Assembly (NCBI GenBank): GCA_028386065.3 | Contig: JAKUCV010007477.1 | Span: forward strand, 62,001 to 126,000 | DNA length: 64,000 nt | Source of the DNA: Turnera subulata | Lineage: Eukaryota > Streptophyta > Magnoliopsida > Malpighiales > Passifloraceae | Direction of reading: 5' to 3' | Notes under the pieces: model-generated | Told to the model about the DNA's origin: nothing | Database searches by the model: none | The model's input: only the letters and a program-made list of their open reading frames with translations | Program-made: the position numbers and the translations under genes | Part shown: one piece after another, positions 6,066 to 64,000 of the stretch | How positions within the stretch are numbered: position 1 is the first letter of the stretch | Layout: each line of letters starts with the position of its first letter

Positions 6066-6215
6066 AAAAGACGAAAACTATAAATGAAGATCAATCTGTA
6101 GATAATCTTGTGCTTTATTTGAGCCAAAAGTAGTCAAGCACCATGAGGTTCAGCCATATATACAAGAGCCACTAGTGAGAAGGATGTGAATGTTCAATTA
6201 CAAACGTACAGAAGA
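6066..6215 (-). repeat. Fragment duplicated from the TIR gene upstream region
   Basis: About 150 bp resembling 33864-33990 and 53345-53475. Shared landmarks are the 'gatcaatctg' segment, 'gaggttcagccatatataca' and 'gagaaggatgtgaa'. The matching stretch at 53.3-53.5 kb is the putative leader of the TIR-NBS gene on the minus strand, so this is a detached piece of a related receptor locus next to the LINE 3' end. From 6216 to about 6515 I see only AT-rich sequence with no gene. Confidence 0.65.
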
Positions 6216-6515
6216 TGAAACATAATGATAAAAAGGTAGTTCTCTTTACCTTTGAAAAGCTTCCTCATTTTAGATTTTTTGTATTTTTGCTATGATTTGT
6301 CTGATTCTCCAGTTAACAAAGTGTCTATCCAAGAAAGACACGACAAGATTTGATTTAAAGAGTTGCTGCTTTTCAGTTTAAATTTTAAATTGTCTTTTGG
6401 ATGACTCGTTAAAATTAAAACATCCTTTTCACAACACTACCAATGGGTAAAAAGTAAAACCACACCCAAAATAAAAAACTTCCTCGGTATTATAAAAACC
6501 TCCAACATTGGCCAT

Positions 6516-7965: not shown

Positions 7966-8228
7966 AGAAGGTTTGTGCTTTGTCAAGTGCAAGGTTGTGA
8001 ATTAATACACTGTGCAAGTGAATCCTGTCTAGGAGACTGGGTTTTAAGTGAACCTTTGTTCCTCCAGTCTTTCCTGGGGATTTATCTTGGAATGATAATT
8101 CTGTCTTAGGAGATCGGCTAGGCCATCTTTCCTGGGAATTATCGAATCAGTTCAATTCACTACTTGTACGGGCACTATTCACCGCAAGGATTTTCCTAGA
8201 TCGAGGAGCTAGTCAGTCTTTGATCCAG

Positions 8229-11200: not shown

Positions 11201-12227
11201 CCACTGTGTGTTCGTTCAGAAATTTTCTGACGATGACTTCATCATCCTATTGCTCTATGTGGATGATATGCTGATTGTTGGCCGGAATGTTTCCAGAATC
11301 AACAGCTTGAAAGCACAGCTAAGCAAGTTTTTCGCCATGAAAGACTTGGGGCCAGCAAAACAAATTCTCTGGATGAGAATTGTTCGAGATCGACAAGCCA
11401 AGAAGATATGGCTGTCTCAAGAGAAGTATATAGAGAAGGTACTTCAACGATTCAACATGGATAAGGCTAAAGCAGTCAGCTGTCCTCTTGCTAACTACTT
11501 TAGACTAAGTCCTGAGCAGAGTCCATCTACTGATGAGGAGAAGAAAGAGATGGAGCGGATTCCATATGCCTCAACAGTGGGAAGCTTGATGTATGCCATA
11601 GTATGTACCCGACCAGACATTGCTCACGCAGTTGGAGTGGTGAGCCGATACCTTTCGAATCCTGGTAAAGAGCATTGGAATGCTGTCAAGTGGATTCTCA
11701 GGTATCTTCGAGGAACCTCCAAAATGTGTTTATGTTTTGGAGAAGACAAACCTGTGTTGGTTGGATACACCGATGCAGATATGGCTGGTGATGTTAATTC
11801 CAGAAAATCTACATCAGGATACATGATTAATTTTTCAGGGGGAGCTGTGTCATGGCAATCAAGGTTACAGAAGTGTGTTGCTCTGTCAACTACAGAAGCC
11901 GAGTTCATTGCAGCAACGGAAGCATGCAAGAAGTTGTTGTGGATGAAGAAGTTCTTAACTGAACTTGGTTTTTCGCAAGACAGTTACCAATTGTTTTGTG
12001 ATAGTCAGAGTGCTATCCATCTTGCGAAGAATGCCTCTTTTCATTCCGGTTCGAAACACATAGATGTGAGACACAACTGGATCAGGGATGTGCTAGAGAA
12101 GAAGCAATTACAACTCGAGAAGATCCATACAGAAGAGAATGGTTCTGACATGCTGACGAAGATACTTCCAAGGGGAAAGTTTGAATACTGCCGTGAAGCT
12201 GCCGGAATGGTGGATCCTCCCATGTAG
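8229..12227 (+). CDS. Copia Gag-Pol polyprotein with one in-frame TAG
   Basis: One frame of about 1,332 codons from the ATG at 8229 to TAG at 12225, broken only by TAG at 10398-10400 between integrase and RT. Order of domains: Gag of the UBN2/gag_2 type from residue 1; zinc knuckle CHHCKKKGHIKKFC (about 8916-8958); aspartic protease DSGA at 9111; GAG-pre-integrase HRRLGH; integrase with catalytic Asp at 9684, Asp at 9870 (RTDNGGE) and Glu at 9975 (GLAERMN); reverse transcriptase with YVDD at 11256; RNase H with GYTDADMAGD and CDSQSAIHLAKN. All key catalytic residues are present. An upstream TTG at 8220 is in frame, but the ATG is preferred. The TAG fits a CAG-to-TAG transition. The polyprotein drives reverse transcription and integration of the element. 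Confidence 0.93.
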
Positions 12228-17671: not shown

Positions 17672-19750
17672 ATGGATCCGGTTGGAGGGAATCAGCATGC
17701 TGGAGTTCGCCTAGATGACGATCAGATATCGGTGGATCAACCGCAACAAGTTGCGGGAGGTCCGAAACACCCTACGAATGTTCCTTTGGGAGACCCTATG
17801 CAGATGTTAAACGTGGTAACTCAGATTCTGCAAAGGCAAGATGCCAGAGATGCCCGTATCGATAGCATGGAAGCTCGGGAACAGGAAAATCAGGGACCTA
17901 TTGTGAATCCAGTGTATATGAAGCTGGAAAAGCTTGGGGCTGAGATTTTCACCGGTATCACTACACTACAGGATGATGATCAGTGGCTCCGTCAGATGAA
18001 TCGAGTGATGCTGAAACTGACATGCATGAATGACAAGTGGGCAAGATATGCCGCTGCTATGTTCAGAGGAGTTGCTGTTGATTGGTGGGAGTCTGCGACC
18101 AGAGATTTGCCAACGCCTATCACTATACCATGGAATCAGTTCATGAGTATGTTCTGAAGGAAGTTTGTTTCTAAGACGTACCAGGACCAGCTGAAGCGAG
18201 AGTTTCTGGGGTTACAACAGGGCGCAGAACAGACGGTTAATGAGTATGAGGTCCAGTTCAACCGCCTGTCTATCTACGCTAGTGAATTTGTGGCTACTCA
18301 GGAGGCTAGATGCCGACGTTTCTGGGATGGTCTTCGATCTGGCATCCAGACAGTCATGGGGTGCAAGGTCTGTGAGACTCACCAGGATATGCTATCAGAT
18401 GCCTTGAGAGCCGAGATTATTTGGCTGGGTAATGAGAGAGAGCAACAGGAGATATGCAAGAGACAAGTTGCACAGAGTTCTGGGGGACAGAACAAGAGGT
18501 TCCAGACACCTGCTAACCGATCAGGGTATGGACAGAGCAACTCTATGCCAGTGAGTTAGGGACGTGGATGGAACAACAATACTTACAACCGAGGTAGTTC
18601 TTGGACTCAGTCTGGAGGGACTTCATCTGGGAATACTCACCCGAGACTTCCTCTGTCTCAGGTGAGGTGCTATAAGTGTAACGAAGTTGGGCACTACAGA
18701 TATTCTTGTCTCAAGTTGGGAAGATCCGGAGGTACAACACCTACTCAGACAGTGCAAGCTTCAGTTGCCAGTGTTCCTAGTGGTTCTGGAGTTGGCCGAG
18801 GCTGAGGACGTGGAGCTGTTCCTGCTAGAACCAAGTCAGCCATGAACCAGAGTGCAGTTGTGCCGAGAGCATTTGTTATCACCGCTGATGAGGATCTGGA
18901 GAATGTCGATGTCATAGCAGGTATTTTTATAGTCTTTGGTAGTACTGCATATACTTTGATTGATCCTGGTGCTACGCATTCTTTTGTCACGTAAAGTTTT
19001 GCAACACAACATAACTGTACGGAAGAAAACTTAACTTGTCCGATGAGGGTTAGGTTACCTGCGGGTATAGTGGTCCGATTAACCCATGTGTGTAGAGATG
19101 TTTCGCTTTCGTACGATAATAAGGTTTTTCTTGCACGGTTGGTTGTGATGAACATGGGAGGTTTTGATATCATTCTGGGGATGGATTGGTTGTCGAGATA
19201 CAGTGCTTTGGTAAACTGTCGAACCAAGGAAGTGTTGTTGACTTCCGATGGTGGACGACAGGTTTTGTTGATAGGTATTGGGAGAGTTGCTACTACATGT
19301 ATTATCTCTGCTAATCAGGATGTCGGAATGAAGCCGCATGGTCCAGATGCCTTGTTGACTCACATCAAAGGCGAGGATGTTCAGACTCCAGTTTTGGGGG
19401 ACATCACAGTTGTCAGGGAGTTTCCAGATGTGTTTCTAGAGGATTTACCAGGATTGTCACCTGACAGAGAAGTTGAGTACACCATCGACTTGATGCCGGG
19501 AGTGACACCTATTTCGATGGAACCGTACCGGATGGCACCAACAAAACTCCAGGAGTTGAACAAGCAGTTAGATGAGCTGTTAGAGAAAGGTTTTATCAGT
19601 CCTAGTACATCACCTTAGGGATCACCAGTTCTGTTTGTAAAGAAGAAAGATGACAATCTGCGTATCTGTGTGGACTACCGCCAGTTGAATAAAGTGACAG
19701 TGAAGAACAAGTATTCGCTTCCCATAATTGATGATTTTTTCATCAGTTAC
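17672..19750 (+). pseudogene. Gypsy Gag, protease and start of RT (frame 1 of 3)
   Basis: Reads from MDPVGGNQHAG at 17672. The Gag region has 'FRGVAVDWWESATRD' and 'SKTYQDQLKREFLGL'. A zinc knuckle CYKCNEVGHYRYSC lies near 18670-18712. The protease shows LIDPGATHSF, where DPGA replaces the more usual DSGA. RT begins with '[20 protein letters not shown]'. The same frame is kept throughout, but stops fall at 18155, 18557, 18803, 18993 and 19616. The stop at 18803 sits in a Gly-Arg repeat where CGA must have become TGA, and that at 19616 replaces the Trp of a conserved S-P-W-G motif. A frame change near 19755 ends this segment. Confidence 0.85.
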
Positions 19751-19754
19751 AGGG

Positions 19755-20832
19755 AGCTACCGTGTTTTCCAAGACTGATCTTCGATCTGGATATCATCAA
19801 TTCAAGATTGCATAGAGGGACATACCGAAGACAGCCTTCCGTACTCGGTATGGTCACTTCGAGTTCACAGTGGTTCCTTTTGGCTTGACTAATGCACCTG
19901 CAGTTTTCATGTGCTTGATGCACTTGGTCCTGAACGAGTTCTTGGATAAGTTCGTGGTAGTCTTCATCGACGATATTCTGATATACTCCAAGAACAGGGA
20001 AGAACATGAAGAGCACCTGAGAGTAGTACTGCAGAGATTGCGAGAGAAAGAGTTGTATGCCAAGTTCAGCAAGTGCGAATTCTGGCTTGAAGAGGTAGCA
20101 TTCCTTGGACATGTTGTATTCGGAGATGGGATTAAGGTTAACCCAGCCAAAGTGAAAGCTGTTCTAGAGTGGGAGTCACCCAAGACGGTACCCGAAGTCA
20201 GAAGTTTTCTTGGCCTTGCAGAATATTACCGGAGATTCATTGAGGGTTTTTCTTTGATAGCCTGTCCTATGACCAAACTGTTGAAGAAAAATCAAGCATT
20301 CGTTTGGAGTGAAGCCTGCCAGAAGAGTTTTGATGAACTAAAGAAGAAGTTGACATCAACGCCAGTTTTGACAGTACCTAAGCTAGGAGTGGAGTATGTG
20401 TTGTTTTGCGATGCTTCAGGTCTTGGTTTGGGAGCAGTTCTAATGCAAGAAGGCTGAGTGATTGCTTATGCTTCGAGATAGTTGAGGCCACATGAGAAGA
20501 ATTATCCGACACATGATCTAGAGATGGCCGCAGTGATCCTTGCTTTGAAGATTTGGTGACATTACCTGTTCGGAGAGAGATGCCGGATTTTCACAGATCA
20601 TAAGAGTCTCAAGTACATCATGACTCAGAAGGAACTTAATCTGCGACAAAGATGTTGGGTTGAGTTGCTGAATGATTATGATTGTACTATTGAGTATCAC
20701 CCTGGAAAAACTAATGTTGTAGCTGATGCTTTGAGCCGGAGACAACCAGAAGATGCTTTCACGACCTACTCGATATCCTCACTTATCGAGTTAAGGAAGA
20801 TGGGAGTTAATTTGTCAGTTGATGAGACATGA
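19755..20832 (+). pseudogene. Gypsy RT and RNase H (frame 2 of 3)
   Basis: Continues the polyprotein in a new frame: '[13 protein letters not shown]', a TAG near 19822, '[16 protein letters not shown]', then the catalytic V-F-I-D-D box at about 19950-19980. The RNase H region follows with '[14 protein letters not shown]' and '[10 protein letters not shown]', then '[15 protein letters not shown]'. Stops at 20455 (CGA to TGA), 20479 (CAG to TAG) and 20557 (CGA to TGA) each fit one transition in a conserved Arg or Gln codon. A final frame change before 20979 leads to integrase. Confidence 0.85.
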
Positions 20833-20869
20833 ACTTTGTTGACACATATTGAAGTCAATCTAACCTGAG

Positions 20870-22337
20870 AGGCTGGATTGTAGAACTACAAGATGGAGAT
20901 CCCGACCTGATCAAGCTGAAGGAAGCATTCCGCAGTGGAAAAGAAGATAAGTTTCACATAGCAGAAGATAGTGCACTGATGCTGGGAAAACGTCTATGTG
21001 TACCCAGTATTGGTGACCTGCGCAGTCAGATTCTAGAAGAGGGACATATGACACCGTATGCTATGCATCTCGGGAGCACCAAGATATATCAGAATTTGAG
21101 AAGTCATTTTTGGTGGCCGCGAATGAAGAAAGATGTAGCAGAATATGTTGCTAAGTGCATCACCTGCCAGCAAGTGAAAGCTGAGCATCAGGCTCCAGCT
21201 GGAAAGATAAGATCGTTGACAGTGCCAGAATGGAAATGGGAGATGATCACTATGGATTTTGTGGTCGGATTACCGTTGACTCGGAGACAGTATGATGCTA
21301 TCTGGGTTATCGTTGACCGACTTACAAAATCAGCTCATTTTCTTCCCATTCGACAGACAGATACCTTGGATAAGTTGGTGAAGCAGTATGTTGCAGAGAT
21401 TGTAAGGCTACACGGAATTCCTAAGTCCATAGTCTCAGATAGAGATCCGAGATTCACATCATGGTTTTGGAAGAGTCTGCTAACAGCTTTGGGTACGAAG
21501 TTGAGTTTCAGTACCGCGTTTCATCCTCAGACAGACAGACAGTCAGAGAGGACTATTCAGACACTAGAAGACATGCTAAGGGCTTGTGCTCTTAACTTCA
21601 GTGGGAGTTGGGATCAGTATCTGCCTTTAGCGGAGTTTGCCTACAACAACAGTTTTCATTCTAGAATTGGCATGCCACCGTTTGAAGCTCTTTACGGAAG
21701 GAAATACCGAAGTCCAGTTTGTTGGGATGTAGAAGGTCTTCGTTTGATCGTTGGTCCAGATTTGGTTTAGCAGATAGTTGATAAGATTCAGACAGTCAAG
21801 CAGAGTATGAGAGCAGCATAGGACCGACAGAAGAGCTATGCTGATAAGCATCGTCGTGAGATGGAGTACCAGGTGGGAGAAAAAGTTTTCCTCCGAGTTG
21901 CACCTTGGAAGGGTGTTATCAGATTCGGGAAAAGAGGAAAGCTGAGTCCCAGGTACATCGGGCCGTATGAGATCGTGGAAAGGGTTGGACACTTGGCGTA
22001 CAGATTATCTTTACCAGAGGTGTTGTCACGGATTCACAACGTGTTTCATGTTTCCATGTTGAGGAGGTACAGATCAGATTCGAGTCATGTAGTTAGTACA
22101 ACTGATGTTGAGGTCGCAGAGGATCTTACGTATACAGAGTTGCCAGAGCAGATTCTTGCCCGAGAGGTCAGACAGTTGAGGAACCGAGTTATTCCGATGG
22201 TAAAGGTAAAGTGGAGCAAGCACTCTGCAAACGAGTCTATGTGGGAAGTCGAGGAGCATATGTGTTCTCAGTATCCGCACTTGTTCACAGCTTCGGAGAG
22301 AATTTCGGGGACGAAATTCTTTTTAAGGTGGGTAGGC
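20870..22337 (+). pseudogene. Gypsy integrase and chromodomain-like C-terminus (frame 3 of 3)
   Basis: The integrase zinc-binding part includes 'HLGSTKIYQNLRSHFWWP' and a C-I-T-C pair. The catalytic core has Asp in ITMDFVVGLP, Asp in VSDRDPRFTS and Glu in RQSERTIQTL, so the D-D-E triad survives. TAG codons at 21768 and 21819 both replace Gln in conserved positions. The tail has 'IGPYEIVERVGHLAYRL' (GPY/F module), 'IHNVFHVSMLRRY', and a chromodomain-like segment 'VKVKWSKHSANESMWEVE'. Such chromodomains steer integration toward particular chromatin. The frame runs 45 bp into the 3' LTR before stopping at 22380. Confidence 0.87.
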
Positions 22338-46979: not shown

Positions 46980-47877
46980 TTAGTCTGAATCCAAGTCCAA
47001 CTCATCACCGGAGGAACTATTATTGGAATGCTCCAGCTGCTCCAGCCCATGTTCTATCTGAAACTTCTCTAAATAGAACAAATTTATGGATTTAAAATGC
47101 CGGAGGATGCCATTATCCTTGGCAGTGGGATGGTCCCTCTCAAACTGTTCCAGCAACTCTTCAGAATCAGCAACGCCTTCTCGAAGAGATGGGAGAGGAG
47201 GAGCTATTGGTATCCTCTTTAGCATCGGACACCCAAAAACTAAAATTTTTTTGCAAGGACTGGCAAATCAGTGTCCCGTCACAAATGCTTGTGAGTTGTG
47301 GCAGATCAGAGATGAGTAATATGCTTAATTTGGGGAGACTTAATTGTGAAGTGATGTAGCTGGGCCCACTTTCTTCACTGTGAGGAGCTATTGGTATCCT
47401 CTTTAGCATCGGGCACCCAAAAACTTTAATTTCTTGCAACTACTGGCAAATCAGTGACCCGTCACAAATGCTTGTGAGTCGTGGCAGATCGTGAATCTCT
47501 AATATGCTTAATTTGGGGAGACTTAATTGAGAAGTGATGTAGCTGGGCCCAATCTCCCCACTTGCTATTATCTCTTCCATTCCTTCACATCGTCCTATTG
47601 TAAGATTTACTAGGTTCTTGAGGTTTTGCAGCAATCCCGGATGGAACAGCTTCTTTATTCGGTGACAGCTTAATGCCTCAAGCTCCTTGAGGTGAATAAA
47701 GATACTGCCATAGGATGGCATTACCAGTACATCAACAGATGATCCAGAAGAAGAGGGTGACACCAAACATTCTATTCCATCACAGCCAATGATCATAATA
47801 GACTTCAATCGGTTGCAACGCCTTCTCGAAGAGATGGGAGAGGAGGATCTATTGGTATCCTCTTTAGCATCGGACAC
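46980..47877 (-). pseudogene. Reduplicated and broken LRR C-terminus
   Basis: Downstream of the stop at 47805, the LRR end is repeated in pieces. 47440-47877 repeats the blocks 'MPSYGSIFIHLKELEALSCHRIKKLFHPGLLQNLKNL' (in part) to 'SICDGSLICQ' and then hits TAG. 47167-47439 repeats the last ~60 residues again. 46980-47225 carries what looks like the original end, 'PSLREGVADSEELLEQFERD', and an acidic tail closing with DELDLDSD before TAA. Frames differ between pieces. The gene probably once read straight from the main exon into the 46980 end, before internal duplication. Confidence 0.75.
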
Positions 47878-50254
47878 CCCAAAACTTTAATTTCTTGCAA
47901 GGACTGGCAAATCAGTGACCCGTCACAAATGCTTGTGAGTTGTGGCAGATTGCAAAAGTGTAATCTTCTTAATTTGGGGAGACTTATTTGAGAAGTGATG
48001 TAGCTGGGCCCACTTTCCTCACTTGCTATTATCTCTTCCATTCCTTCACAATGTTGTATTGTAAGATTTTCTAGGTTCTTGAGGTTTTGCAGCAATCCCC
48101 AATGGAACAGCTTCTTTATTCGGTGACACCTGGATACAGAAAGCTCCTTGAGGTGAATAAAGATACTGCCATAGGATGGCATTACCTGATGGGGTGCCTT
48201 AATGTCTACAAGGAGCCATAAGCTCTCCAAACAGTTAAGTTTCAATCTCTCAAGTTTATTAAGTACATCAACAGATGATCCGGAAGAAGAAGATGACACC
48301 AAATATTCTATTACATCACAGTTAAGGAGCTCAATAGACTTCAATTCGGTTGCGTTACTTACGGGAACTAATAAGCTCCTTGGACACTTGCAACGATTCA
48401 ACACCAGCTCCTCAATGCCTCGTGGAAGTTTATCAAATTGTCTGCTAATATCACATCCCCACACGCTAACACTTTTACCAGTTGGATATCTGCGCGTATT
48501 ACCCACCCCACTATTCACAAGAAGTTTGAAAATTACCAGTGGTTTCTCGTGCTTTTGGAACTGCAAATAACTGTTAAATCCAACAAAGCCTTCTTGAAAA
48601 CCACATACCAAAACTTCCAAATTCCTTAAGCCACCTACCTCCTCTCCTTTAACCATCCAATTGTGAAGTCCGAGGAATTGGAGACGGGAGAGATTTGGTA
48701 ATATACCGTCCGGAAAAACCTTCAGGCCACTGGAATAAATATTGAGATACCTGAGGTTGTGGAGCAACGCCATACCATTTGGCACTTCTTTAAGTTCAGT
48801 ATCATATAAATCCAAAGCCTTCAATTCTTGAAGCTTGGCAAGCAATGGCACATAGCTCAACTCGTAACAGCCAGCAAGGAACAAACCAGTGAGTCTCACA
48901 AGATCAGAGATGGAGCCAGGCAGTTCTTTAATGCCAGTATAAGAAAGATCAAGAACTTTGAGACCATTCAATTTCTCGAAAAGGGAATCCCCAATATAAT
49001 TTAACGGCCACTTTTCCGAACTCGTGCCTGGGGACTCATCGCAACCTAAGAAAAGAGTTGACAAATGAGGACAGCAGGGTGAGCAGCCAGAAGGAATGTT
49101 CTTGATGTCGTGGCGCATAAATGAAGCTCTATGCAAGTCTTTCCTCCACTTATCCACATCTGGCAATGCTCTTAATTGCTTACCAGCTTCCACCATCACA
49201 ACTGACCTTTTTCTCAATTCTTGAAGGGCAACATCCCTTATCAGGTCATGCATCTTCACAACTCTCCCCTTCCAAAAGAAAACATCCTTGCTGCTACAGA
49301 CTTCCAACAAGGAGAGGCTGCCTAGTTTATCAAGCATGTAATGGCCTTGATCAACCTCATGTTGTCTACTCTCCCCTTCTTCTATTATTCCCTCACAAAT
49401 CAACCGCTCTATTAACTTATTTCTTTCAATCTCAAAATCCTCTGGAAACAATGCACAATACAGGAAACATTCCTGTAAAGATTGATCTTTTATACTAGCA
49501 TAGCTTGTTCTCAGTACAGCGAATACCTGTTCTTCCATGTCATCATCTTTTCTGACTTTGGATTCTCTGAGTTGAGCTAATCTATACCTCCATTGCCCTA
49601 CATCATCCACTCCTTGCAAACTTTTTGCCATCACCTTAATAGCAAGCGGTAACCCTGCACATTCCTTTACAACAGATTTCACAAGTGCTTCATCATCTAT
49701 CTCAATATTCTCAATCTCCTTCTTGAACAAATCAAAAGCTTCTTCCTCCGAGAGAGGTTCTACTCTGACTTTATTCGTTTTGCAACCCATCTTTCTACAA
49801 ACTTCATCTGATCGGGTTGTAAAAACTAACTTGCATCCATTTGGCCCTACTGGAAGTCCCACATCCTTTGTATCAAAATGAACCCACAAATCATCTAAGA
49901 TAAGAATGAACTTTCGTTTTCTATTCAACTCCCCCATCAACTTTGCTGCCCTTTTCAATATATCATCCTCCTTTGAAATATCTACCTTAATAGCTTTGGC
50001 GATCCCTTCTTGTAACTTGTAAATGCTAAAATCCTGGGATACAGTAACCCAGTAACTTGGAGGGAAAGAGTCTGATCTTTCTTGAAGTTGATTGTATATA
50101 TGTTTCATCAATGTGGTTTTACCGACCCCTCCCATTCCATAAACTCCGATCTTTTCAACGTCAACTTTCTCTAGCAAAGAACAGATCTCATCCCTAGCTC
50201 TCTTAAATCCTTGACCGACCAATTCTGATGTGGGAAATTGATACTTTGCTGCCC
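47805..50254 (-). CDS. NB-ARC and LRR exon (RPS2/RPS5-like type) of a TIR-containing receptor
   Basis: About 815 codons starting at a CAG acceptor at 50255. Motifs in order: P-loop GMGGVGKTT (50138-50112), kinase-2 LILDDLW, RNBS-B KLVFTTRS, GLPL as CAGLPLAIKV, RNBS-D ECFLYCALFPED, and MHD as KMHDLIRDVAL. The final Trp of kinase-2 and the 'FLYCALFPED' form are marks of the non-TIR class. LRRs follow ('LKVLDLSYTGIKELPGSI', 'LKALDLYDTELKEVP'). All nucleotide-binding motifs look intact. The frame stops at 47805 after 'SLREGVATD', where a tandem duplication joins out of frame. Acts as an intracellular pathogen sensor by family knowledge. Expected to be joined to the two exons upstream. Confidence 0.9.
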
Positions 50255-52046
50255 CTGTCCATCAAATAGATATCATGTATTATTGACTGTGAACAAAATT
50301 TACATTAATTGATTTGAAAAAAAGACCATAGTAAGTAATTAATTTTAAATTGGCGTTACAATTAGCCAATCTTTGAGTTTAATATATAAAGCGTATATTC
50401 AATTATTCTTGAGGTGTATAATTATAATTGTGAGCCATACACATACAACCAATATCCAAATATCACCAAATATATACTATCTTAGTAAACAATTGAGTGA
50501 ATTATCTGTAAATGAGAGGGGAAAACCTCTTTAGGACTTTAGGTTATTCTTTAGACCTACAACTCTGAAACCCCTTAATCAAGATCTATTTTTTTTAATT
50601 GTTATACCAAATAAGTTCTTTTGTCAATTCTGGATGATAAATTAAAATTTTTTCCCCTCATATGCTCTTAAATATTTATTAAGGTCCTTCTTATTATAAT
50701 TCAAATTAACTAGGTCCTTAAATATTAAAAAATAAAAATCATAAATTTTTAAATCCTGAAATTTAAATTCTGAACACTAAATCTTAATCTTAAAACCAGA
50801 AATGGTAAACTATAAAGCCTAAAATCCCAGATATTATATCCTAAATCCTAAAATATTAAATCATAAATTCTTAAATATTAATTCTAAACTTTAAACCTTA
50901 AAATTTCAAAACCTATACTTTAAATCCTAATTTCTTTTTTTTTTGATAAGTTAAATCCTAATATCTTTAATATTAAATCATAAATCCTAACTTTTTTTAT
51001 ACTATTGATTGAGTTTATTCATATGAATATAATTATACGAATGAAGATGGCTAGTGAGCTAAGGGTGCTAAAAGGAGCATTACAATATGTGTTCCATGTA
51101 GCTCCAAGGGCAGAATACACTAAGCAAGACCAAGGAAATTCCTGCGAACACCCTTCCAGCATTTTATAGATGATATGTGTGCATATCATGTATAAATTAG
51201 GGTATAATTTCTCCTATTGACCTAGCATTAGTTAGATATCATGCATTTTGCTAGCTATTTTAGTTTAATTTTCACTGACATTGTCTTTGTTAATTGAGTT
51301 TTGCTTTTAGGAGCTTTTTGATGCAAATATACCTATTTTTCAAGGATTTTGAGCTCTTTAAAGGATTCTAAAAGACCTGAAGCCAATTGATTAAAGACGC
51401 CTATCCAAGAGTTCACAACAGAGTGACACTATCTGTGATGTTATCTGTCAATAGTCTAACTCTATTGCATTCACATATCAAAACTAGATTCTTGCGTCAA
51501 TTAATTCTGAAGATTTATTAAGAGATCCATTAAAGGCATGACTTTTAGATACTCTAATGAAGAAAGAATCATGCGGCATGTCTATTTAAAGAAGATCCTA
51601 GTAATATTAATTGTTGGAGATTAGCTAACTAAGCCAACTTTCAGAAATTAATGCCAGGGTTTTGGAGATATAAGAAGAAAAAAGACATCTTTTCGCTCTA
51701 CACACTGAAGGCTGGAGTAGGGATTTCGATAGAAACTTTTCTTCTTTTCCCTACACACTGAAGGCTGGGTTCATTTTGTCACCATGGATGTTTTTCCATC
51801 CTTTTACTTTGTTTCAGTATGAAGAGGAACCAAATAGATGAAAAAAAACTAAAACCCAACACATGGATGAATTCTAATTTTAGTGTCTAACACAATGATA
51901 AAACAAGTCTTTAATCCAACAAATAAACCAAGCAACAAATTTAATATGATCATCCTCAAACATTTGCAAGAAAGCTATGCACTTTCTTTAAATATGTGAA
52001 ATAGCAAACATTTAAATTTGACACCAATGCCCAATGGTTGCATTAC
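50255..52046 (-). other. Intron between linker exon and NB-ARC exon
   Basis: About 1.8 kb, GT-AG. At 50690-51000 it is very AT-rich with many 'aaatcctaaa'-like repeats. At 51690-51770 a short motif 'cacactgaaggctgg' is repeated. No open frame or coding remnant of a coiled-coil domain is seen, which matters because the NB-ARC type would normally be preceded by one. Confidence 0.65.
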
Positions 52047-52102
52047 CTGCGATGCATTCTCCAATCTTTTTGACAATTTTTCGAATTACCTTAGACTCGC
52101 TC
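52047..52102 (-). CDS. 56-bp linker exon between TIR and NB-ARC
   Basis: Preceded by 'tcttattgcag' and followed by 'gtaatg'. With the last two bases of the TIR exon it reads T-S-E-S-K-V-I-R-K-I-V-K-K-I-G-E-C-I-A and leaves one base to join the NB-ARC exon. This Ile/Val/Lys-rich stretch resembles the TIR-to-NB linker of ordinary TIR-NBS-LRR genes. Splice sites follow GT-AG and both phases match. Confidence 0.75.
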
Positions 52103-52491
52103 CTGCAATAAGACAAAATTGAAAAAGCTGGAACATTTTATTTCTCGCATGTGAAGAGGTGGGGAAAAAAAAATACAATAAAGGTTAAGCAAGGCAATCT
52201 ATATGGAAAGTTGACATAAATTTTTTAGCATTTAGAATATGATAAGTAGTCAATCTTCTGCCCTAGTGAATATTTATGTCCCCAGAAACTTCAGTTAGAA
52301 GATTGAGGCTTTTCATTTTGGTTATTTGAATTAAGAATATAATTTTGTACAAAAGAAAAACTCGCTAACTATGCTTCGATTTTTTGGTGTTATGCATGCT
52401 TCATGGGTATCATTTAATCATCCCAGCTAGTTTATATTAGGAATAGAAAAAATTTTGCAAAATAGGCACAAGGACGTTTACTTATACTTAC

Positions 52492-53012
52492 GTTTTATCT
52501 CCAACAACTATCCCTGAAAGGCCTCCAATTTTTGCTAGAGACTCTTTCCATTTCTTTGCTATCTCCTCCTCCGCGGAAGCCTGTTGGTGCTCAGCAAAAG
52601 AGTTAGCAAAACTCTTCTTTTGATGCCTGACATCTGATGGATCGACGTGATAGAAAACAGGCACAACATGATGTCCATCTTGTGTATGACGTCCCATGAT
52701 CAACACTAGTTCATTTAGGCACCATTTAGAGGAAGCATAGCCCTGAGAGAGTACAACTATGGATGATTTCGATTCTTGGATTGCTTTCGGTAGTTCCGAT
52801 CGAATTTCCGTCCCTAATTGAATCCCTTCCTCGTCGAAAAACACCCGATATCCTGCTCCTTCCAACTCTCTCTTGAGGTGATCAATGAAAGTATACCGTG
52901 TATCTTCCCCTCTGAAACTCAAGAATATGTCATAAGGAAGGCATGGCAACGTTGAAGTGGAGGCTTGTTGTTCTACTGGGTTGTTCTTTTGCTTCTTCGG
53001 GTTGCGCTCCAT
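52492..53012 (-). CDS. TIR-domain exon
   Basis: Starts at ATG 53012 and codes 173 residues plus two bases before a GTAAGT donor at 52491. A basic N-terminal stretch (MERNPKKQKNN) leads into the TIR domain: YDIFLSFRGEDTR, 'FFDEEGIQLGTEI' and 'SSIVVLSQGYASSKWCLNEL', then 'VVPVFYHVDPSDVRHQ'. The Glu of WCLNEL is at the position of the catalytic Glu of plant TIR NAD-cleaving enzymes, so activity is possible. If left unspliced, the frame ends four codons later. The spliced product with the next two exons is about 1,008 residues. Confidence 0.9.
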
Positions 53013-53930
53013 GATTTAGCTAGATTGGGCTACTTACTGATATATATTCTTGTATCTACACAAAAGAACCCGATGGATATTTTGTATTAGCAAGTGATTG
53101 ATGTATTAGCTAGATATCTAACTACTGAAACAGGCTACATGTATCTTTTGTCCAGGGAAAGGATAGGTAGGCTATGTATAATAATTAAGACACAACTGGG
53201 CAGATAAACAGTTATAGTCACTCGGCAACTACTTCTCAAGATTTGTAACCTGGTGACCCAAACAAAAACAAAAGCTATCATTTGGTATTTCTCAACATTC
53301 ACTAAATTATTTGGAGAGGAAGAGGAAATATATAAACAGCTTACCTGATCAATCTGCAGGTAATCTTGTGCTTTAATTGAGCCGGCAGTAGTCAAGCAAG
53401 CACCATGAGGTTCAGCCATATATACAAGAGCCACTAATGAGAAGGATGTGAAATTTCAATTACAAATCTACAGAAGATCAAAGATGTTAACAGACTATTG
53501 CAGAGCTGTAGGGGAGGTTCTCTCCTTAATCTCTCCAATAAATTAATTGGCCTTAAAACATGTCTCAGTAAGTATCACCAGAACAGAAAAGTAATCATGT
53601 GCTCTAAAATTGAATGATTCTGTAGAGATTAACAAGAGACCAATGAATGATTCTGCCCAACTTGAAGAACAGGATAACTAATTAGAGAAAAGATATAAAT
53701 CATATGCATAATATGTGTACCTGCGCTGTGTTTCCCACATGATCTTCCTCCAATGATCAGAGAAGGGAGTGATAGTGAAAGAGCAGTCAATCATGAATGG
53801 AGAAGAGAGAGCTGCGTCCAGGAAATTGCAGATAAGCTTCGTACAAAGACCAAAACTTTCTTGGAGGTTGAACTGTTGAAGTTCCACTACTGCACACACC
53901 CCACCACGGCCCACCCACTATTAAAAATTA
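53013..53930 (-). promoter_or_regulatory. 5' region of the TIR gene with possible leader exons
   Basis: Two candidate splice donors on the minus strand are shared with the duplicate at 33.5-34.3 kb: CAG|GTAAGC near 53345 (changed in the duplicate) and CGCAG|GTACAC near 53720. The first follows a short frame opening MALVYMAEPHGAC at 53434. They suggest one or two upstream leader exons, perhaps untranslated. No clear TATA box could be assigned. Confidence 0.4.
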
Positions 53931-56093: not shown

Positions 56094-57624
56094 TTAATCC
56101 AACTGATGCTCATCGCAGGAACTATAATCGTTTGAATCCAACTGATCCTCATTGTAGTAACTATAATCATTTGAATCCAACTGATCCTCATCGTAGTAAC
56201 TACAATCATCTGAATCCGACTGATCCTCATGGGGATAACTGATCCTCATCCGTTTAAACTGATCAGGCACATACTGGAGGATATCATTAGCACTGGGATG
56301 GTCCCGTTTAAACTGTTCCAGCAACTCTGTCGAATCAAAGCAGCCTTTTCGAAGAGAAGGGAGAGGAGGAGCTATTGGTAACTTCTTTAGCATCTGACAC
56401 TCAACAATTTCAAGTTTTGCTAGATACTCGCAAATCAGTGGCCCATCACAAATGCTTGTGAGTCGTGGCAGATCGTAAAGTTTTAGTATACTTAATTTGG
56501 GGAGACTGAATTCAGAAGTGATGTCGCTGCCACTTTCTTCATTGGCTATTATCTCTTCCATTCCTTCACATTTTTCTGTATGAAGATATTCCAGGTTCTT
56601 CAGGTTTTGCAGCAACCCCGGAGCGAACAATGTCTTCATTCTGTGACAATTGTACATACCAAGCTCCTTAAGATGACTGAAAATATTGCCATAGGATGGC
56701 AATACCTGATGGGGTGTGTTAATCTTTACGATGAAGCATAAGCTCTCCAAGTCAAAAAGTTCCAGTCTCTCAAGTTTATTAAGTACATCGATAGATGATC
56801 CCAAAGAAGAAGAAAACGACACCAAACATTCTATTCCATCACAGTAAGCGATGTTTATAATCTTCAATTCGGTTGCATACCTTATTGTAGGAACTAAGCT
56901 CTTTGGACACATGCAATCCTCTAACATTAGCTGTTCAATGCCTTGTGGAAGTATATCAAATTGTCTACTGATATCACATGTCTGCATCAAAACTCTTTTA
57001 CCATTTGGATTTCTGGCACTGTCAAGCATCTTAATCATATCACATCGCAACATCTCAACTAATATACCAATTGGCTCTCTGTCAATCTTACTATACTTAG
57101 AATTCACAACAAGATGGAAGCTTACTAGTGGTTTCTCATGTTTTTGGAATTGCAAATAACTGTTCAACTCTATTAAGTCTTGAAAACCACATTGCAAAAC
57201 TTCCAAATTCCTTAAGCGACCTACCTTCTGTCCTTTAACCATCCAATTGTGAAGTCCAGGGAATTGGAGACTAGAGAGATTTGGTAATATACCGTTGGGA
57301 AAAACCTTTAGATCATTGCGACTCATGTTGAGATACCTGAGGTTGTGGAGCGACACCATACCGTGGGGCACGTCTATAAGTGGAGTGTCATATAAATCCA
57401 GAGCCTTCAATTCTTGAAGCTTGGCAAGTGATGGTACATGCCTCAAATGGCGACAGTCCGAAAGGAACAACCCAGTGAGCCTCACAAGATTATAGATGGA
57501 ACTTGGCAATTCAGCAATCCAACTTCCTGAAAGACCAAGAACTTTGAGACCATTCAATTTCTCCAAAAAAGAATCCATAATATATCCTAACATCCAATTG
57601 CCGCTTAACAAAAGAGTTGACAAA
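56094..57624 (-). pseudogene. NBS-LRR gene 2, LRR part (3' of the LINE insertion)
   Basis: About 510 codons of leucine-rich repeats closely related to the gene at 47.8-50.2 kb ('LNGLKVLGLSGSWIAELPSSI', in part, and 'KALDLYDTPLIDVPHGM'). It contains an extra block absent from the other gene ('REPIGILVEMLRCDMIKML'). The C-terminus has three 13-residue acidic repeats (EDQLDSNDYSYYN type) before TAA at 56094. It is the continuation, in the same phase, of the NB-ARC part at 63032-64000; the LINE at 57625-63031 separates them. An ATG at 57635 lies in inserted sequence and is not the natural start. Confidence 0.88.
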
Positions 57625-57804
57625 AACATTATCACCTACATCACTCATGACAAATTGGAAAGAGTGTAATGAGTGCTTCTCTCTCTACTTTCTCTCTCTA
57701 AAAAAATCTCCATAGAATTTAGTTCTTTCAACGGATTTCTTTGGGGATTTCAGTGTTATTCAAATCTCCATGTTTAATTTCTGCTATCTCTTCCTCTAAT
57801 CATC

Positions 57805-59121
57805 ATGGCACCAGCATATCTCTTAGATGCCGCTGGCTTGGCTCGTGAGAAACCTCCTCTTGTGATGGATTTGGGGCAACTTCAGCTTCCAAACTCTAAA
57901 TCAGCATCTGCAAAGAACTCAAAAGGAAAAAGTATCATTTCGGTTCAATCTCCCATTGGTTTTGCCCCCACTGACTGTACTCTTTTGGATGAATCCCCAT
58001 CGGAGATATCAAATCCTCTCCCTAAGACGGATTTTCCCGCTATGGACACCACAGTTCTGGGTGTTCGACCGGAGACTGTAGATCCGAATTCTAAGTTTCA
58101 ATCTACGGGACCATCGAATGCCCCTTCGTCCTCCTGGTCCAAGGTTGTTTCTACTCCTTCAGTTTCTTCACCGCAACTCAATTTTATGAAACCCATTTTT
58201 ACTGGTGATAGTAACTTGCTCAGTATTCCCCTTGAAATGATTGAGATTGGCCGTAAAAAGTACTCCTGCTGTTTGATTGGACAATTTGTGGGCACTACTC
58301 CGAATTTAGGGCTCATCCATGCTATGGCGAATCGACTTTGGGGACGTGATGGTCCTATTTCAGTTTCCCGTTACAAAGAAGAGCTATTTTTGTTCCAGTT
58401 CCCAGATGATGCAGCCTATTCTCGAGCTTTTACTCGAGGGCCATGGCATATTGGTGGTGTGCCATTGATATTTCGACCTTGGACCTCTTCTTCTAAGAAG
58501 CTGGATTTCTCTAATGCTACTTTCCCTGTCTGGATCAAATTGAAAAATGTTCCAATGGAATTGCTTACTAAGGAAGGATTAAGTTACTTGTCCAGTGTCC
58601 TAGGTACGCCCCTCCACACTGATCAAGACTGTTCTAAGATTTTTAAGAGCGATTGTGTTAATGTTTGTGTACAAGTTGATTTCTCAAAGCCTCTGCTAAA
58701 CGAATTGAAACTTGATTTACATGGGAAAACTGTTATTATTGAGGTCATCTACTCTTGGAAATTGCCTCATTGTGATTTTTGTCACGGTTGGGGGCATCAT
58801 GAAATTGCCTGTTCTGAGAAGAAAGTTACAAAAATCTGGGTCCCTAAGCAAACTGCTGCTCCTCCCAAGCCCACACCCTCTCCCCCACATGTTGAGGAAT
58901 CTATTCCACCCTCTTCTACCACATCCCTTCCTGTCAGTCCTGCTGTTAAGTCTATCCCTGTCCTCCAAGCACAACCAGCAGACCATACCCCTGCTGCTCT
59001 CCCCTCCCATCCAGTTATACCTGATAATAAGCAAAATTCACTTTTTGAAACTCTACCAGTCTCTATTCCCCCCATATTTGCCTATTGTTTCTTGTTCCTC
59101 TCCTCTGATTCCAAGTCCTAA
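57805..59121 (+). CDS. LINE ORF1 (DUF4283 plus zinc knuckle)
   Basis: 438 residues from ATG 57805. After a Ser/Pro-rich N-terminus, the DUF4283 region spans about residues 135-310 ('RGPWHIGGVPLIFRPW', 'FPVWIKLKNVP'), and a CX2CX4HX4C knuckle (CDFCHGWGHHEIAC) follows near 328-341. The last ~20 residues are out of phase: after a 1-base shift near 59050-59095 the frame to 59254 reads KKPQVAPVLAQQPGKSKPKR and ends just before ORF2. The intact protein would have ended at 59254. Binds the LINE RNA by family knowledge. Confidence 0.85.
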   Translation: MAPAYLLDAAGLAREKPPLVMDLGQLQLPNSKSASAKNSKGKSIISVQSPIGFAPTDCTLLDESPSEISNPLPKTDFPAMDTTVLGVRPETVDPNSKFQSTGPSNAPSSSWSKVVSTPSVSSPQLNFMKPIFTGDSNLLSIPLEMIEIGRKKYSCCLIGQFVGTTPNLGLIHAMANRLWGRDGPISVSRYKEELFLFQFPDDAAYSRAFTRGPWHIGGVPLIFRPWTSSSKKLDFSNATFPVWIKLKNVPMELLTKEGLSYLSSVLGTPLHTDQDCSKIFKSDCVNVCVQVDFSKPLLNELKLDLHGKTVIIEVIYSWKLPHCDFCHGWGHHEIACSEKKVTKIWVPKQTAAPPKPTPSPPHVEESIPPSSTTSLPVSPAVKSIPVLQAQPADHTPAALPSHPVIPDNKQNSLFETLPVSIPPIFAYCFLFLSSDSKS

Positions 59122-59254
59122 AAAGCCTCAAGTTGCTCCTGTTCTTGCTCAGCAACCAGGAAAATCAAAGCCAAAAAGAGGACGAGGTCAAAAACCCAAA
59201 AATACTCCAGTCTTCCCCTCAAGGGTCCCAGTTGCTTCTTCTTTACCTCCTTAA

Positions 59255-62200
59255 ATGAAATGGCTCATATGGAATACTAGGGGCCACAATGACCCAGAAA
59301 AACAAAAAGAAGTATTAAAAGTTATTTCCAAGTATTCTGTTGATATTGTTTGTCTGATTGAGACCAAAATACAACCTGAACGAGCTGCTGAGGTTAGGAA
59401 ATCCTTTCTGCCGCAATGGCAATTTGCAAATAACTATCAGCATGCCCGTCTTGGACGTCTCTGGCTTCTCTGGTCTGATAAGGTGGTTCTCCATGTTCTT
59501 AGCTCTTCTGCTCAAATTTTGCATTGTTCTATTTCATGTCCAAGTGAACAATCAGCCTGCTATGCCTCTTTTGTCTATGGCTCAAATACTGCTCTTGAGC
59601 GATCTACTAATCTCTACTCTAGCTTCTCCAGCATTGCTTCAGCTGTTGGCTCTAAGCCTTGGTGTATTGCTGGCGATTTCAATATTGTTCGGTGCTCCTC
59701 TGAATCAACTTCTTCTATTTCACATATGCTGCCAGAAATCTCTCAGTTTAATAGTTCTCTTACACAAAATGGGTTGTTAGATCATCCTTTCACTGGTCCT
59801 CTCTACACATGGACTAACAGGCAACCTGCAAATCCAATTTTCTGAAAATTGGATCGATTTCTTGCTAATGCTGATTGGTTTACTGAATTCCCTCTTAGCA
59901 AAGTTGAGTTTCTTACTCTGGGAGTGTCTGATCATTGCCCTATTCTGCTTATCAGTAACCATTCAGTAAGTTCTGGGCCAAAACTTTTTAAGTTCTGCAA
60001 TTTTTGGATCTGACATCTACAATTTCTCTCTTCTGTCTCTAATGCTTGGTCTCAGCATTTTGAGGGGTATGCTATGTATCAAATTTGGCAAAAGCTAAAG
60101 CTACTCAAAGCTGAACTTCGGAAGCTACATAGGGCATCTTATTGTGATTTGTCAAACAAGATAACTCTAACAGAGAAGGAATTACAATCTGTGCAGAAAG
60201 ATCTTTTCTCTGGAAATATCTCAAATGATCTTTTGCTTGTTGAAAAATGTTTAATTCATTCTCTTACTAAACTCAAAGTTGCAGAAGAGTCTTTTATAAA
60301 GCAAAGATCTCGTATCTCTTGGCTTGCTTGTGGTGATTCAAATACCAAATTCTTTCACAATATGGTGAAAATTCGTAAAGCAAGAAATTTGATTCGCTCT
60401 ATTGTTACCCCTCCAGGGTCTTTACTAACTGATTCACTACAGATTGAGGATGCTATTGTTACTCATTATTCCAGTTTTTTGGGACAGCGGAACACTGACG
60501 TCACTCCTCCAACCATACCCTATCTTAAATCACTTCTGCAGCACACAGTCTCTCCTACTGATTCTCAAATACTTTCTGCTCCTATTACCCCTGTTGAGAT
60601 CAGGAATGCAATGTTTTCTTTGGGTTTAAATAAATCTCCTGGCCCTGATGGTTATACTACAGAGTTCTTCAAGGCTGCTTGGCCTATCATTGGAGAGGAC
60701 ACCATCAAAGCTGTTCAGGAATTCTTTTCCTCAGGCCGCCTACTTAAAGGTATAAATTCCACTACTCTTAGCCTGATTCCTAAAGTACCCAATGCTCAAA
60801 AGCTTACTGATTTTAGACCCATAGCCTGTTGTACAACACTTTATAAGTGTATCTCTACTGTTTTGGCCAATAGACTTCAAAAATGCCTTCCCTCTCTTAT
60901 AAGTAATAGCCAGACAGCTTTTATCCCTGGACGTCGAATTGCTGATAACATCTTATTGGCACATAAATTGGTCCATAATTATCACAAGCCAAATATATCT
61001 AGCAGATGTGCAATGAAAATTGATTTAATGAAGGCGTTTGATACTGTTGATTGGGGGTTCTTACTGAATGTATTGAAGGCTATGAATTTTCCGGATCAAT
61101 TTATTGTTTGGCTAAAAGCTTGCTTCACCACTACTATGTATTCAATTTCTATAAATGGAGCACTATGTGGTTACTTCAAAGGAGGAAGAGGAATGCGACA
61201 AGGTGATCCTCTTTCGCCTTACTTGTTTGTTCTCTCAATGGAGGTACTGTCTTGTCTCCTTACTAAAGCAGCAACTGATCACACCCTCCCTTATCATCCT
61301 AAATGTGATTTGCTAGGCATCACTTATCTTTGTTTTGCTGATGACCTTATGGTTTTCTCAAATGGAAGCCTACAAGCTGCTGAAACTATTACTCAATTAT
61401 TCAAGCAATTTTATATTTTTTTCTAGCCTCAAATTTAATCCTATCAAAAGTGAAGTGTTTTTAGCACGGGTACCTGAGCACTTAGCGTAACAATTTCTTG
61501 TTATTTGTGGCTTTACAAAAGGCAGTCTACCTGTAAGGTATCTTGGAGTTCCTTTAATTTCTGGGCGGCACACTTATGCCCATTGCTAACCCCTCATCAC
61601 TAAAATCACTGCCCGTATACAATCCTGGAGCTCTAAGTATTTATCCTTCGCAGGAAAACTCCAATTGGTGATCTCTGTTTTGTTCAGCATGCATGGACCA
61701 GTACTTTTATTCTTCCAACAAAAATCATCAAAGAGGTCGAAAAGCTCTGCTCCTCTTTCCTTTGGTCTGGCTCTGCTGCAAATGCAAAAAAGGCCAAAGT
61801 AGCATGGACTGAACTCACACTACCTAAGCAGGAAGGTGGTCTCGGTTTGAAGAAAATCAAGGAATGGAATCAGGCTAGTATTGCTCGCCATCTTTGGAGT
61901 ATAATGATGTGTGCTGGTTCACTATGGGTAGCTTGGGTCTCAACATATATTTTAAAGGGCCGCAGTATATGGAGCTTACCTCTTCCCTCAAACTGTTCCT
62001 GGAGCATTAGAAAGATTTTCAAACTCAGACCTTTATTTGTTACTGCTATTGCTCATTCCATAGGCTCTGGTGAAAAAATCTTTGTATGGTGGGATAATTG
62101 GCACCCACGGGGCCCCCTTCATCTCTTATTACCTGCTGATCAAATCCCTCGGACAAAAATCCCAATCCAAGCAAAAGTAAATACTTTGATCTCTGAAAAC

Positions 62201-62881
62201 TCTTGGTCTTGGCCAATTAGTCGAGTCCCCCTCATTACCAATCTGCAATAAATTGCAGAATCTTTAATTGTCCCCTCCTCTAGTCCTGATCTGATTTATT
62301 GGACTTTATCATCCTCTGGCAAATTCACTGTGAAAAGTGCTTGGCACTTCATCAGAGACAAAAGACCACGTGTTCCCTGGTTCAAATTACTATGGTCTAT
62401 GGGTTTTATCCCAAGACATAGCTTTATCAGCTGGCTAGCGATCCTGGATCGCCTTTCCACTCGGGATAGATTGCAGACTTGGGGAGTTATAACTGATGCT
62501 AGTTGTCTTTTATGTTCTAATTCAATTGAATCTCGTGACCATCTTTTCTTCTAGTGTCCTTACTCCTCTGCAGTTTGGTCTCGAATGCTCAATCTCTGTA
62601 ATGTCTCTCGACTTGTTGATTCTTGGCCAACAGAATTTAGCTGGGCTCAAAGATTTTTACAGAAGAGAACTTTGCAAGCATTGGTGTTACGACTTGCTTG
62701 GTGTGCTTCCATCTACCACCTTTGGCATGAAAGAAATGCACGATTTCACACTTGTTGCTCTCGGCCTTCGGATGCAATTGTAGCTGATATCTGTGCTGAC
62801 CTCAAGATGCGTTTTTATAGTCTCACAAATATTAAGTCTCGGAGACTTACAGTAGAGATGCAAGCTTTGTGTTCTTTCTAG
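59255..62881 (+). pseudogene. LINE ORF2 (endonuclease-RT), broken
   Basis: ATG 59255 follows the ORF1 region stop directly (MKWLIWNTRGHNDPEKQK). Endonuclease motifs include 'CLIETKI', 'CIAGDFNIV' and 'SDHCPIL'. Stops lie at 59843 and 60013 (both TGA). The RT is long and open from 60074 to 61426: 'KSPGPDGYTTEFFKAAW', 'IPGRRIADNILLAH', 'GMRQGDPLSPYLF', and the F-A-D-D box at 61334. A frameshift near 61418 and further stops follow. The zinc-binding end is at 62330-62560 ('CLLCSNSIESRDHLFF', then TAG). No RNase H is present. Confidence 0.88.
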
Positions 62882-63031
62882 GGGCATAAAATTTGTAGGC
62901 ACTAGTTGATTGTTTTTTCTGTTGTTCCATTATTGGTTTGTGCTGTAATTAAACAGTATGTACTTTGTTAGGGTCTCCCCTAACCAGAGTTTTTATGCAA
63001 TGAGAATATTGATTTGATTCTCAAAAAAAAA

Positions 63032-64000
63032 AAAAGAGTTGACAAATCAGGACAGCATGGTGAGTGGCCAAAAGAAATGTTCTCGACGTCGTAGTTGTTT
63101 ATAAATGAAGCTCTACGCAAGTCTTTCCTCCACTTACCCACATCAGGCAATGCTCTTGATTGCTTGCCAGCTTCAACCATTACAACTGACTTGTCTCTCA
63201 ATTCTTGAAGGGCAGCATCCCTAACCAAGTCATGCATCTTCACAGTTCTTTTTGTAGATTTCTGCCTATAGCCTTCCAACAAGCAAAGGCTTTCTAGTTT
63301 ATTAAGCATGGCATGGCCTTTATCAAATTCTTCTTGTCTACTCTCCCCTTGAATTATTCCCTCACAGATCAAGAGCTCTATCAGCATCTCTCTTTCAATC
63401 TCAAAATCGTCCGGAAACAATGCACAATAGAGGAAACATTCATGTGAAGATTGATCTTGTAAACGAACAAAACTTACAGCGAATACCTTTTTCTCCATGT
63501 CATCATCTTTTGTAAACTCTGATTTGATTAGTTGAGACAATATATGCCTCCATTCATGTACATCATTTACTCCTCTCATGCTTCTAGCCATCACCTTAAT
63601 AGCAAGTGGCAACCCGGCACATTCCCTTACAACAGATTTCACAAGTGCTTTATCATCTATCTCAATATTCTCAATCTCCTTGAACAAATATAAAGCTTCT
63701 TTGTTTGAAAGTTGCTCTAATCTGACTTTATTCTTTTTGCAACCCATCTTTTTACAAACTTCATCAAATCGGGTTGTAAAAACTAGCTTGCATACATTTG
63801 GCTCCACTGGAATTCCCACTTCCTTTGCATCAAAATCATCCCACAGATCATCTAAGATAAGAATGAACTTTCGTTTTCTGATCTACTCTTCCATCAACTT
63901 TGCTGCCCTTTTCTTCATATCATTCTCCTCTGAGATGTCTATGCTAGTAGACTTGGCAATACCTTCTTGTAACTTGTATATGCTAAAATCTTGGGACACC
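63032..64000 (-). pseudogene. NBS-LRR gene 2, NB-ARC part (5' of the LINE insertion), runs off the window
   Basis: Reads into the window from the right: VSQDFSIYKLQEGIAK, a TAG at 63883-63885, then LILDDLWDDF (kinase-2), KLVFTTRFDEV, CAGLPLAIKVMARS, ECFLYCALFPDD and KMHDLVRDAAL. It is the same RPS2/RPS5-like type as the gene at 47.8-50.2 kb. The stop replaces a Leu/Asn-containing stretch of the relative. The coding sequence breaks at the LINE junction inside 'CCPDLSTL' and continues at 57609. The P-loop and N-terminus lie outside the window, so whether it had a TIR exon cannot be seen. Confidence 0.88.

Follow-up and report, generated by a model that had tools for sequence, protein, structure and literature searches.

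The 64,000-nucleotide stretch of Turnera subulata DNA analyzed here (assembly GCA_028386065.3, contig JAKUCV010007477.1, positions 62,001 to 126,000 of the forward strand; hereafter, the window) carries on its minus strand a gene predicted to encode a nucleotide-binding leucine-rich repeat (LRR) receptor (NLR) in which a Toll/interleukin-1 receptor (TIR) domain precedes the nucleotide-binding (NB-ARC) and LRR domains of a coiled-coil NLR (CNL). The evidence makes it probable that this locus is one copy of a chimeric NLR family in which the TIR exon and a linker exon homologous to part of a TIR-NLR (TNL) are spliced onto a body like that of RPS2 and At4g27190; the copies would have multiplied, remained under constraint and exchanged their TIR ends, and their TIR domains would signal through a CNL-type ring. 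The locus lies on contig C6760 of a 518.7-Mb assembly of 7,125 contigs.

Structure of the gene

The original prediction, made from the sequence of the window alone, had joined a TIR exon, a 56-nucleotide exon and an NB-ARC/LRR exon into about 1,008 residues. The exon coordinates, splice borders, phases and joined frame were all reproduced, and the motifs named in it were correct on re-reading (Table 1). The borders are AAAAC/GTAAGT at 52492, TGCAG and GTAATG on the two sides of the linker exon, and GGACAG before exon 3 at 50255. Joined in phase, the three exons give 1,008 amino acids and a stop codon and are open throughout, and skipping exon 2 breaks the reading frame.

Table 1. Positions of the parts of the chimeric receptor gene, and of a second family copy, in the window
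Feature	Position	Strand	Remark
Exon 1: start codon and TIR domain, 173 amino acids	52492..53012	-	521 nucleotides, phase 2 end, donor GTAAGT
TIR domain proper	52512..52934	-	Pfam, residues 27-167
Intron 1, 389 bp	52103..52491	-	
Exon 2: 56-nucleotide linker mini-exon (SESKVIRKIVKKIGECIA)	52047..52102	-	Homologous to the start of a TNL NB-ARC exon
Intron 2, 1.79 kb	50255..52046	-	Searched for a coiled-coil exon, none found
Exon 3: NB-ARC, winged helix and LRR, RPS2/At4g27190 (CCG10-like) type	47805..50254	-	2,450 nucleotides
NB-ARC domain	49497..50180	-	Pfam match
Kinase-2 motif LDDLW (Trp, CNL type)	49884..49898	-	Read from the sequence
CNL-type winged helix WH_DRP	49227..49451	-	Pfam; the TNL of this genome has WHD_ROQ1 there
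RPS2-like C-terminal LRRs (PF23247)	47856..48173	-	Pfam
Exon 3 stop codon	47805-47807	-	
Repeated LRR units out of frame, with the displaced C-terminal tail	46980..47804	-	
Second, broken family copy	56094..63882	-	NB-ARC part 62980-63882, LRR part 56094-57635

The last LRR units are duplicated in tandem (46980-48345, main spacing 461 bp), and the open frame ends early there. A C-terminal tail of about 35 residues, retained in another copy of the family (c3601_204), is out of frame in the window copy. The stop at 47805 is probably secondary, having arisen when the tandem duplication of the LRR cut off this tail.

Class of the two halves

By its sequence, the TIR half is an ordinary plant TIR that carries the catalytic-Glu motif. 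Exon 1 matches Pfam PF01582 (E value, 2.3e-41), which gives the protein the N-terminal TIR of a TNL, and the nearest solved relatives are RPV1 and RUN1 (the best), L6 and Roq1. In the alignment, the Glu of its CLNEL motif corresponds to the RUN1 position occupied by Glu in 6o0w and by Ala in 7s2z, the catalytic position of TIR domains.

The NB-ARC/LRR half is of the CNL class. The Pfam matches of exon 3 are NB-ARC (PF00931; 1.3e-49), WH_DRP (PF23559; 3.1e-10) and LRR_RPS2 (PF23247; 9.7e-19). Among solved structures, the NB-ARC half scored 194 bits with 9h2l and 104 bits with 6j5t (ZAR1, listed under the name RPP13-like protein 4), compared with 71 bits for the TNL Roq1. Its NB-ARC relatives numbered 1,951 proteins, and the 120 listed were largely At4g27190-, At4g27220- and RPS2-like CNLs by name or domains, with SUMM2-like also among the names; one of the 120 listed, P0108 of Salix viminalis, carries a TIR. 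SUMM2 and the At4g27190/At4g27220-like proteins are members of the CCG10 class. RPS2 and RPS5 belong to that class according to PMC12856790.

In a tree of 54 NB-ARC rows, constructed without two broken copies (c3521 and c6760_127) and three TNL rows that were left out by the P-loop pattern, the 11 TNLs were separate (support 100/100), and 16 chimeras of this genome formed one clade (100/99) beside At4g27190-type CNLs; the program warned of meeting long branches, the Rosa rows included. The kinase-2 motif and winged helix are LDDLW and WH_DRP in the window copy, whereas they are LDDVND and WHD_ROQ1 in the canonical TNL of this genome. The other marks of a TNL, namely an NB-ARC in the TIR-NLR clade, a kinase-2 ending in Asp and a TNL-type winged helix, are thus all absent, and the tree, kinase-2 and winged helix rule out that the NB-ARC is a diverged TNL domain. 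The NB-ARC is of the RPS2/RPS5/At4g27190 group found in CCG10-NLRs, an assignment made from the names of its relatives, the LRR_RPS2 domain and the tree, whose rows include no characterized RPS2 or RPS5 sequence. The original prediction of a non-TIR, RPS2/RPS5-like NB-ARC therefore stands: the phylogeny placed the domain among CNLs and not inside the TNLs.

No coiled coil was found at the window locus. The N-terminal regions of 13 CNL relatives, about 8 of them coiled-coil and the rest BED-type or other, were used as tblastn queries against the window and 25 loci and gave no match in the window; in the 25 loci outside it, they matched 16 to 31 residues at most (E value, 0.025 or worse). An Rx-type coiled coil compared with positions 50255-53500 gave only 7-residue matches (E value, 7.5). 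A coiled-coil exon hidden in intron 2 was accordingly not detected with either G10-type or Rx-type queries, and neither search revealed an upstream coiled-coil exon belonging to the NB-ARC half. The window copy therefore has neither the N-terminal G10-type coiled coil of CCG10-NLRs nor the TIR plus coiled coil that precedes the NBS-LRR in the TCNL (TIR-CC-NBS-LRR) class, as far as these queries can detect. It had been proposed that a TIR and its typical linker replace the coiled coil, and both the negative queries and the TNL-like linker agree with this proposal.

Possible origin of the linker exon

A possible source of the linker is visible in a canonical TNL of the same genome. The C348 locus encodes a more distant TIR, 58% identical to that of the window, together with the kinase-2 LDDVND and a winged helix of the Roq1 type. 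Its NB-ARC exon (exon 2) begins with the linker, and the acceptor and phase of that exon match those of the mini-exon (compare ATATGAGTTCGATGTAATTCAAGAAATCGTT in the C348 TNL with GAAAGAGTCAGAGGTAATTCAAGAAATTGTC in copy c3601_116). In the simplest account, which is built on homology with one TNL, a break near the beginning of the NB-ARC exon of a TNL would have left a stub, kept as a mini-exon by means of the GTAATG donor. Such a break suggests a simple route of exchange, in which the stub of an NB-ARC exon serves as a phase-matched linker exon.

A constrained family in the same genome

The genome was searched with the TIR exon; 260 first-look candidates were obtained, of which 150 were scored and the best 30 inspected downstream. 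An NB-ARC of the same type followed on the same strand in 17 of the 30, the window's own included, and another CNL body (RPP13-like) followed in 4. Five had no NB-ARC within 7-9 kb (L002, L003, L015, L016 and L017) and were broken or masked: two (L031 and L044) retain no more of exon 3 than its first few dozen bases, another two (L032 and L046) enter retrotransposon-like open reading frames (ORFs) as judged by eye, and one (L045) enters a masked stretch. Only 1.5 kb was viewed for the other four (L022, L024, L027 and L029). The counts start from TIR matches and are not genome-wide counts of NB-ARCs with or without a TIR; CNLs of this NB-ARC clade that have no TIR may exist unseen in the genome. 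The copies have multiplied in clusters.

Splicing signals were compared in 18 copies, i.e., the 17 and one more on C1363. Of the 18 TIR exons, 16 end in phase 2; a linker exon of 53 or 56 nucleotides, two lengths of the same phase, has both splice sites in 16 (detected by script); and 16 copies have the AG acceptor of exon 3 at the corresponding site, as judged by eye for one of them (c6760_13). In 15 or 16 copies, the linker exon and the end of exon 1 each had a mean pairwise identity of 0.84 and the start of exon 3 one of 0.82, compared with 0.57 for intron 1 and 0.56 and 0.67 for the start and near end of intron 2. The domain order predicted from the window is shared by many paralogues of this genome, with splice phases conserved. 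Chance juxtaposition of two genes is ruled out by the recurrence in 17 of 30 loci and the conservation of the exons.

These splice sites also bear on whether the locus might be two transcription units, a TIR-only gene that ends at a TAA in the intron 1 donor, followed by a headless NB-ARC/LRR gene, so that a fusion protein would not arise. The GTAAGT donor is in phase 2 (52486-52493 and homologous sites), and in 15 of the 18 copies it supplies a TAA in frame directly behind the TIR, so that retention of intron 1 would give a TIR-only protein. Two separate units seem unlikely, however, given that 16 of the 18 copies keep a linker exon flanked by its two splice sites, that 16 keep the exon 3 acceptor and that the linker exon is conserved far above the adjoining introns. 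In addition, the first in-frame ATG in exon 3 of the window copy is the one in the P-loop.

Median pairwise dN/dS (nonsynonymous to synonymous substitution) ratios were 0.36 for the TIR exon (n = 16), 0.32 for the TIR core (n = 14), 0.34 for the NB-ARC (n = 16) and 0.61 for the LRR (n = 9), as determined from pairs with a dS of 0.02-1.5 only and without the broken copies c3521 and c6760_127; the pairs lack independence, and the values may be distorted by exchange between copies. No pair used had a ratio above 1. Working NLRs usually show low ratios in the TIR and NB-ARC and a higher one in the LRR. Both halves are under purifying selection.

Several observations weigh against a working chimeric family. 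The window copy lacks the C-terminal tail that c3601_204 keeps and may be a slightly truncated allele. The distance from TIR to NB-ARC is 5.8 and 6.1 kb in two of the 17 loci, and in two copies a linker donor of a type known to the script is absent. In 7 of the 18 copies, exon 3 stays open over 700 residues or more (in one of them up to the end of the stretch examined), and in another 6 it is open to the end of the stretch examined, but it is cut short at 39-586 codons in the remaining 5. Differences in the linker exon show a weak bias among codon positions (327, 220 and 335 at positions 1, 2 and 3). Because the tail is lost in the window and exon 3 is cut short in those five copies, some or all copies could be decaying. 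In its strongest form, this explanation holds that the fusion multiplied passively and that no copy is working now, and it would also account for the five TIR loci of the best 30 with no NB-ARC in the stretch examined, as well as for the state of the window, whose second copy is broken and whose first has no tail. The low dN/dS medians of the NB-ARC and TIR exon, the lack of any pair above 1, and the long open exon 3 in seven copies make a wholly decayed family quite unlikely.

The second copy in the window is split, and LINE-like ORFs (by eye) lie on the plus strand between the two pieces, at 57778-59121, 60014-61426 and 61637-62251; the TIR exon of this copy, in L047, is located outside the window and carries a frameshift. 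At 8052-12227 and 18995-21770, the window has ORFs of Copia-like and Gypsy-like retrotransposons (by eye), and transposable elements are abundant around the resistance genes. A similarity search with a Copia ORF gave hits in scattered flowering plants, the best of them in Linum trigynum (75%). At L035, a Copia-like ORF (2190-6467, by eye) is located between a TIR and an NB-ARC that are 5.8 kb apart, and the usual start of exon 3 is missing.

A second body and probable exchange of TIR ends

Beyond what had been predicted from the window, the same TIR cassette was found on an RPP13-like body, and the histories of TIR and NB-ARC conflict. In L038, L043, L048 and L049, a TIR of the same clade is followed by a CNL of the RPP13-like 1 type, with a kinase-2 of LDDVW in three and LDDAW in one. 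A TNL interpretation of these four loci, whose NB-ARC matches are weaker, proved wrong; they are RPP13-like CNLs. The Rx_N match of L048 covers profile positions 27-89 of 93, with the first part missing, and its LRR is of the R13L1 type. The frame of the RPP13-like loci allows a junction TTAG/(A/G)A in the same phase, with the acceptor read from the sequence.

A TIR tree of 44 rows, from which c3521, c6760_127, c3094_11, c3601_83, 5 of the 14 TNLs and L015 were absent (missed by the pattern or broken), placed the 26 TIR rows of this genome in one clade (100/100). Inside this clade, TIRs of RPS2-like bodies, RPP13-like bodies and broken copies are intermixed, and the well-supported branches alone require at least 4 changes for the RPS2-like-body label and at least 2 for the RPP13-like-body label. 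The conflict between TIR and NB-ARC was evaluated with 14 copies that had both halves in the data sets, with groups chosen after the trees had been viewed: the NB-ARC data reject the TIR-favored pair of the window copy and c6760_33 (approximately unbiased test, p-AU = 0.014), and the TIR data reject the four-copy group favored by the NB-ARC (p-AU = 0.0025). Because the trees conflict, the TIR and NB-ARC halves have probably been exchanged between copies.

Comparison with known receptors

The window copy shares its NB-ARC, winged helix and RPS2-type LRR with CCG10-type CNLs (RPS2, RPS5, SUMM2 and At4g27190/At4g27220-like proteins) but has a TIR and TNL-type linker in place of their coiled coil. 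Its TIR is common to TNLs (RPV1, RUN1, L6 and ROQ1), and in the genome's own TNL the linker likewise follows the TIR; its NB-ARC, kinase-2, winged helix and LRR, however, are non-TNL. The Populus TIR-CC-NB-LRR proteins (P0161 and others), several of which are named RPP13-like protein 1, also have a TIR and TNL-type linker on a CNL body, the body type carried by the four RPP13-like loci here. In the P0161 type, the body is R13L1-type and Rx_N is largely kept (match from profile position 5), whereas the window copy is CCG10-like with no coiled coil found.

TIR-CNL fusions are also annotated in Salix and Rosa. In Rosa P0121, P0122 and P0129 and Salix viminalis P0108, one or more TIRs are followed by a CNL-type NB-ARC, and an RPS2-like LRR is listed in three of the four. 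The Rosa proteins differ in having several TIRs in tandem and a distant NB-ARC, and the Salix protein in having its TIR within a longer N terminus. In the NB-ARC tree, these four are located elsewhere in the CNL part, outside the chimera clade, which suggests that TIRs have been joined to this broad CNL class more than once.

Mixed TIR-CC classes have been counted in genome surveys (PMC4709456 and PMC4169499), and the TCNL class is defined in the latter. A literature search for TIR-CNL fusions, mostly among papers free of subscription, found no study of such a family in the portions available, and the portions of PMC10138078, PMC9369113, PMC3335510, PMC4374887 and PMC10720953 that were accessible do not describe such a fusion. 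TIR-CNL fusions as such are already known; the family described here is notable for its amplification and probable exchange.

Proposed signaling by the chimera

In the proposed mechanism, the LRR would sense a pathogen effector and the CNL-type NB-ARC would assemble into a ring, bringing the TIR domains together so that NAD+ is cleaved; the TIR signal would then pass through EDS1 and helper NLRs, replacing the calcium channel formed by coiled coils. TIR NADase signaling may in this way be driven by a CNL switch. Plant TIRs placed on the wheel of NLRC4, another oligomerizing NLR, activate plant defense (PMC7414095). The size of the ring belongs with the points against this mechanism: RPS2 and WAI3 CCG10 resistosomes are reported as octamers and TNL resistosomes as tetramers (PMC12856790), and this difference bears on whether TIRs on such a ring would form active sites.

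The same source describes the coiled coils of WAI3 as sitting directly on the NB domains, without the LRR contact of other CNLs (PMC12856790). A new N terminus may be tolerated by a body that does not rest against its coiled coil. That the RPP13-like fusion of L048 has lost no more than the beginning of its coiled coil would fit a need to keep the contact between coiled coil and LRR.

Alternatively, the TIR might serve as a decoy or bait integrated into the receptor rather than as the executor, with the NB-ARC-LRR signaling in another way or via a partner NLR. Extra N-terminal domains are known across all NLR subfamilies (PMC8559963), and the poplar relatives of this NB-ARC include some named as BED-type domain-containing. 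A decoy nevertheless seems very unlikely, as no N-terminal domain other than the TIR was found, the TIR stands at the place of the coiled coil, and the Glu of CLxE is present in all 16 copies with a TIR exon readable in frame.

The preferred reading, a TIR that signals from a CNL-type body, can be extended, although the extension is tentative and somewhat doubtful: in this lineage of plants, the TIR and linker exons might constitute an executor cassette that can be exchanged, carried on two unrelated CNL bodies, traded between copies and driven by rings of the CNL type, which on the CCG10-like body would be octamers. If so, TIR activation would be independent of the TNL tetramer. TIR and coiled-coil receptors are usually seen as separate lineages with separate outputs, TIR enzymes working in tetramers and coiled-coil channels in larger rings. 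A constrained, multicopy family of TIRs on CCG10-like bodies would offer a natural experiment on the role of oligomer size in TIR signaling and on the freedom with which the front ends of NLRs can be exchanged.

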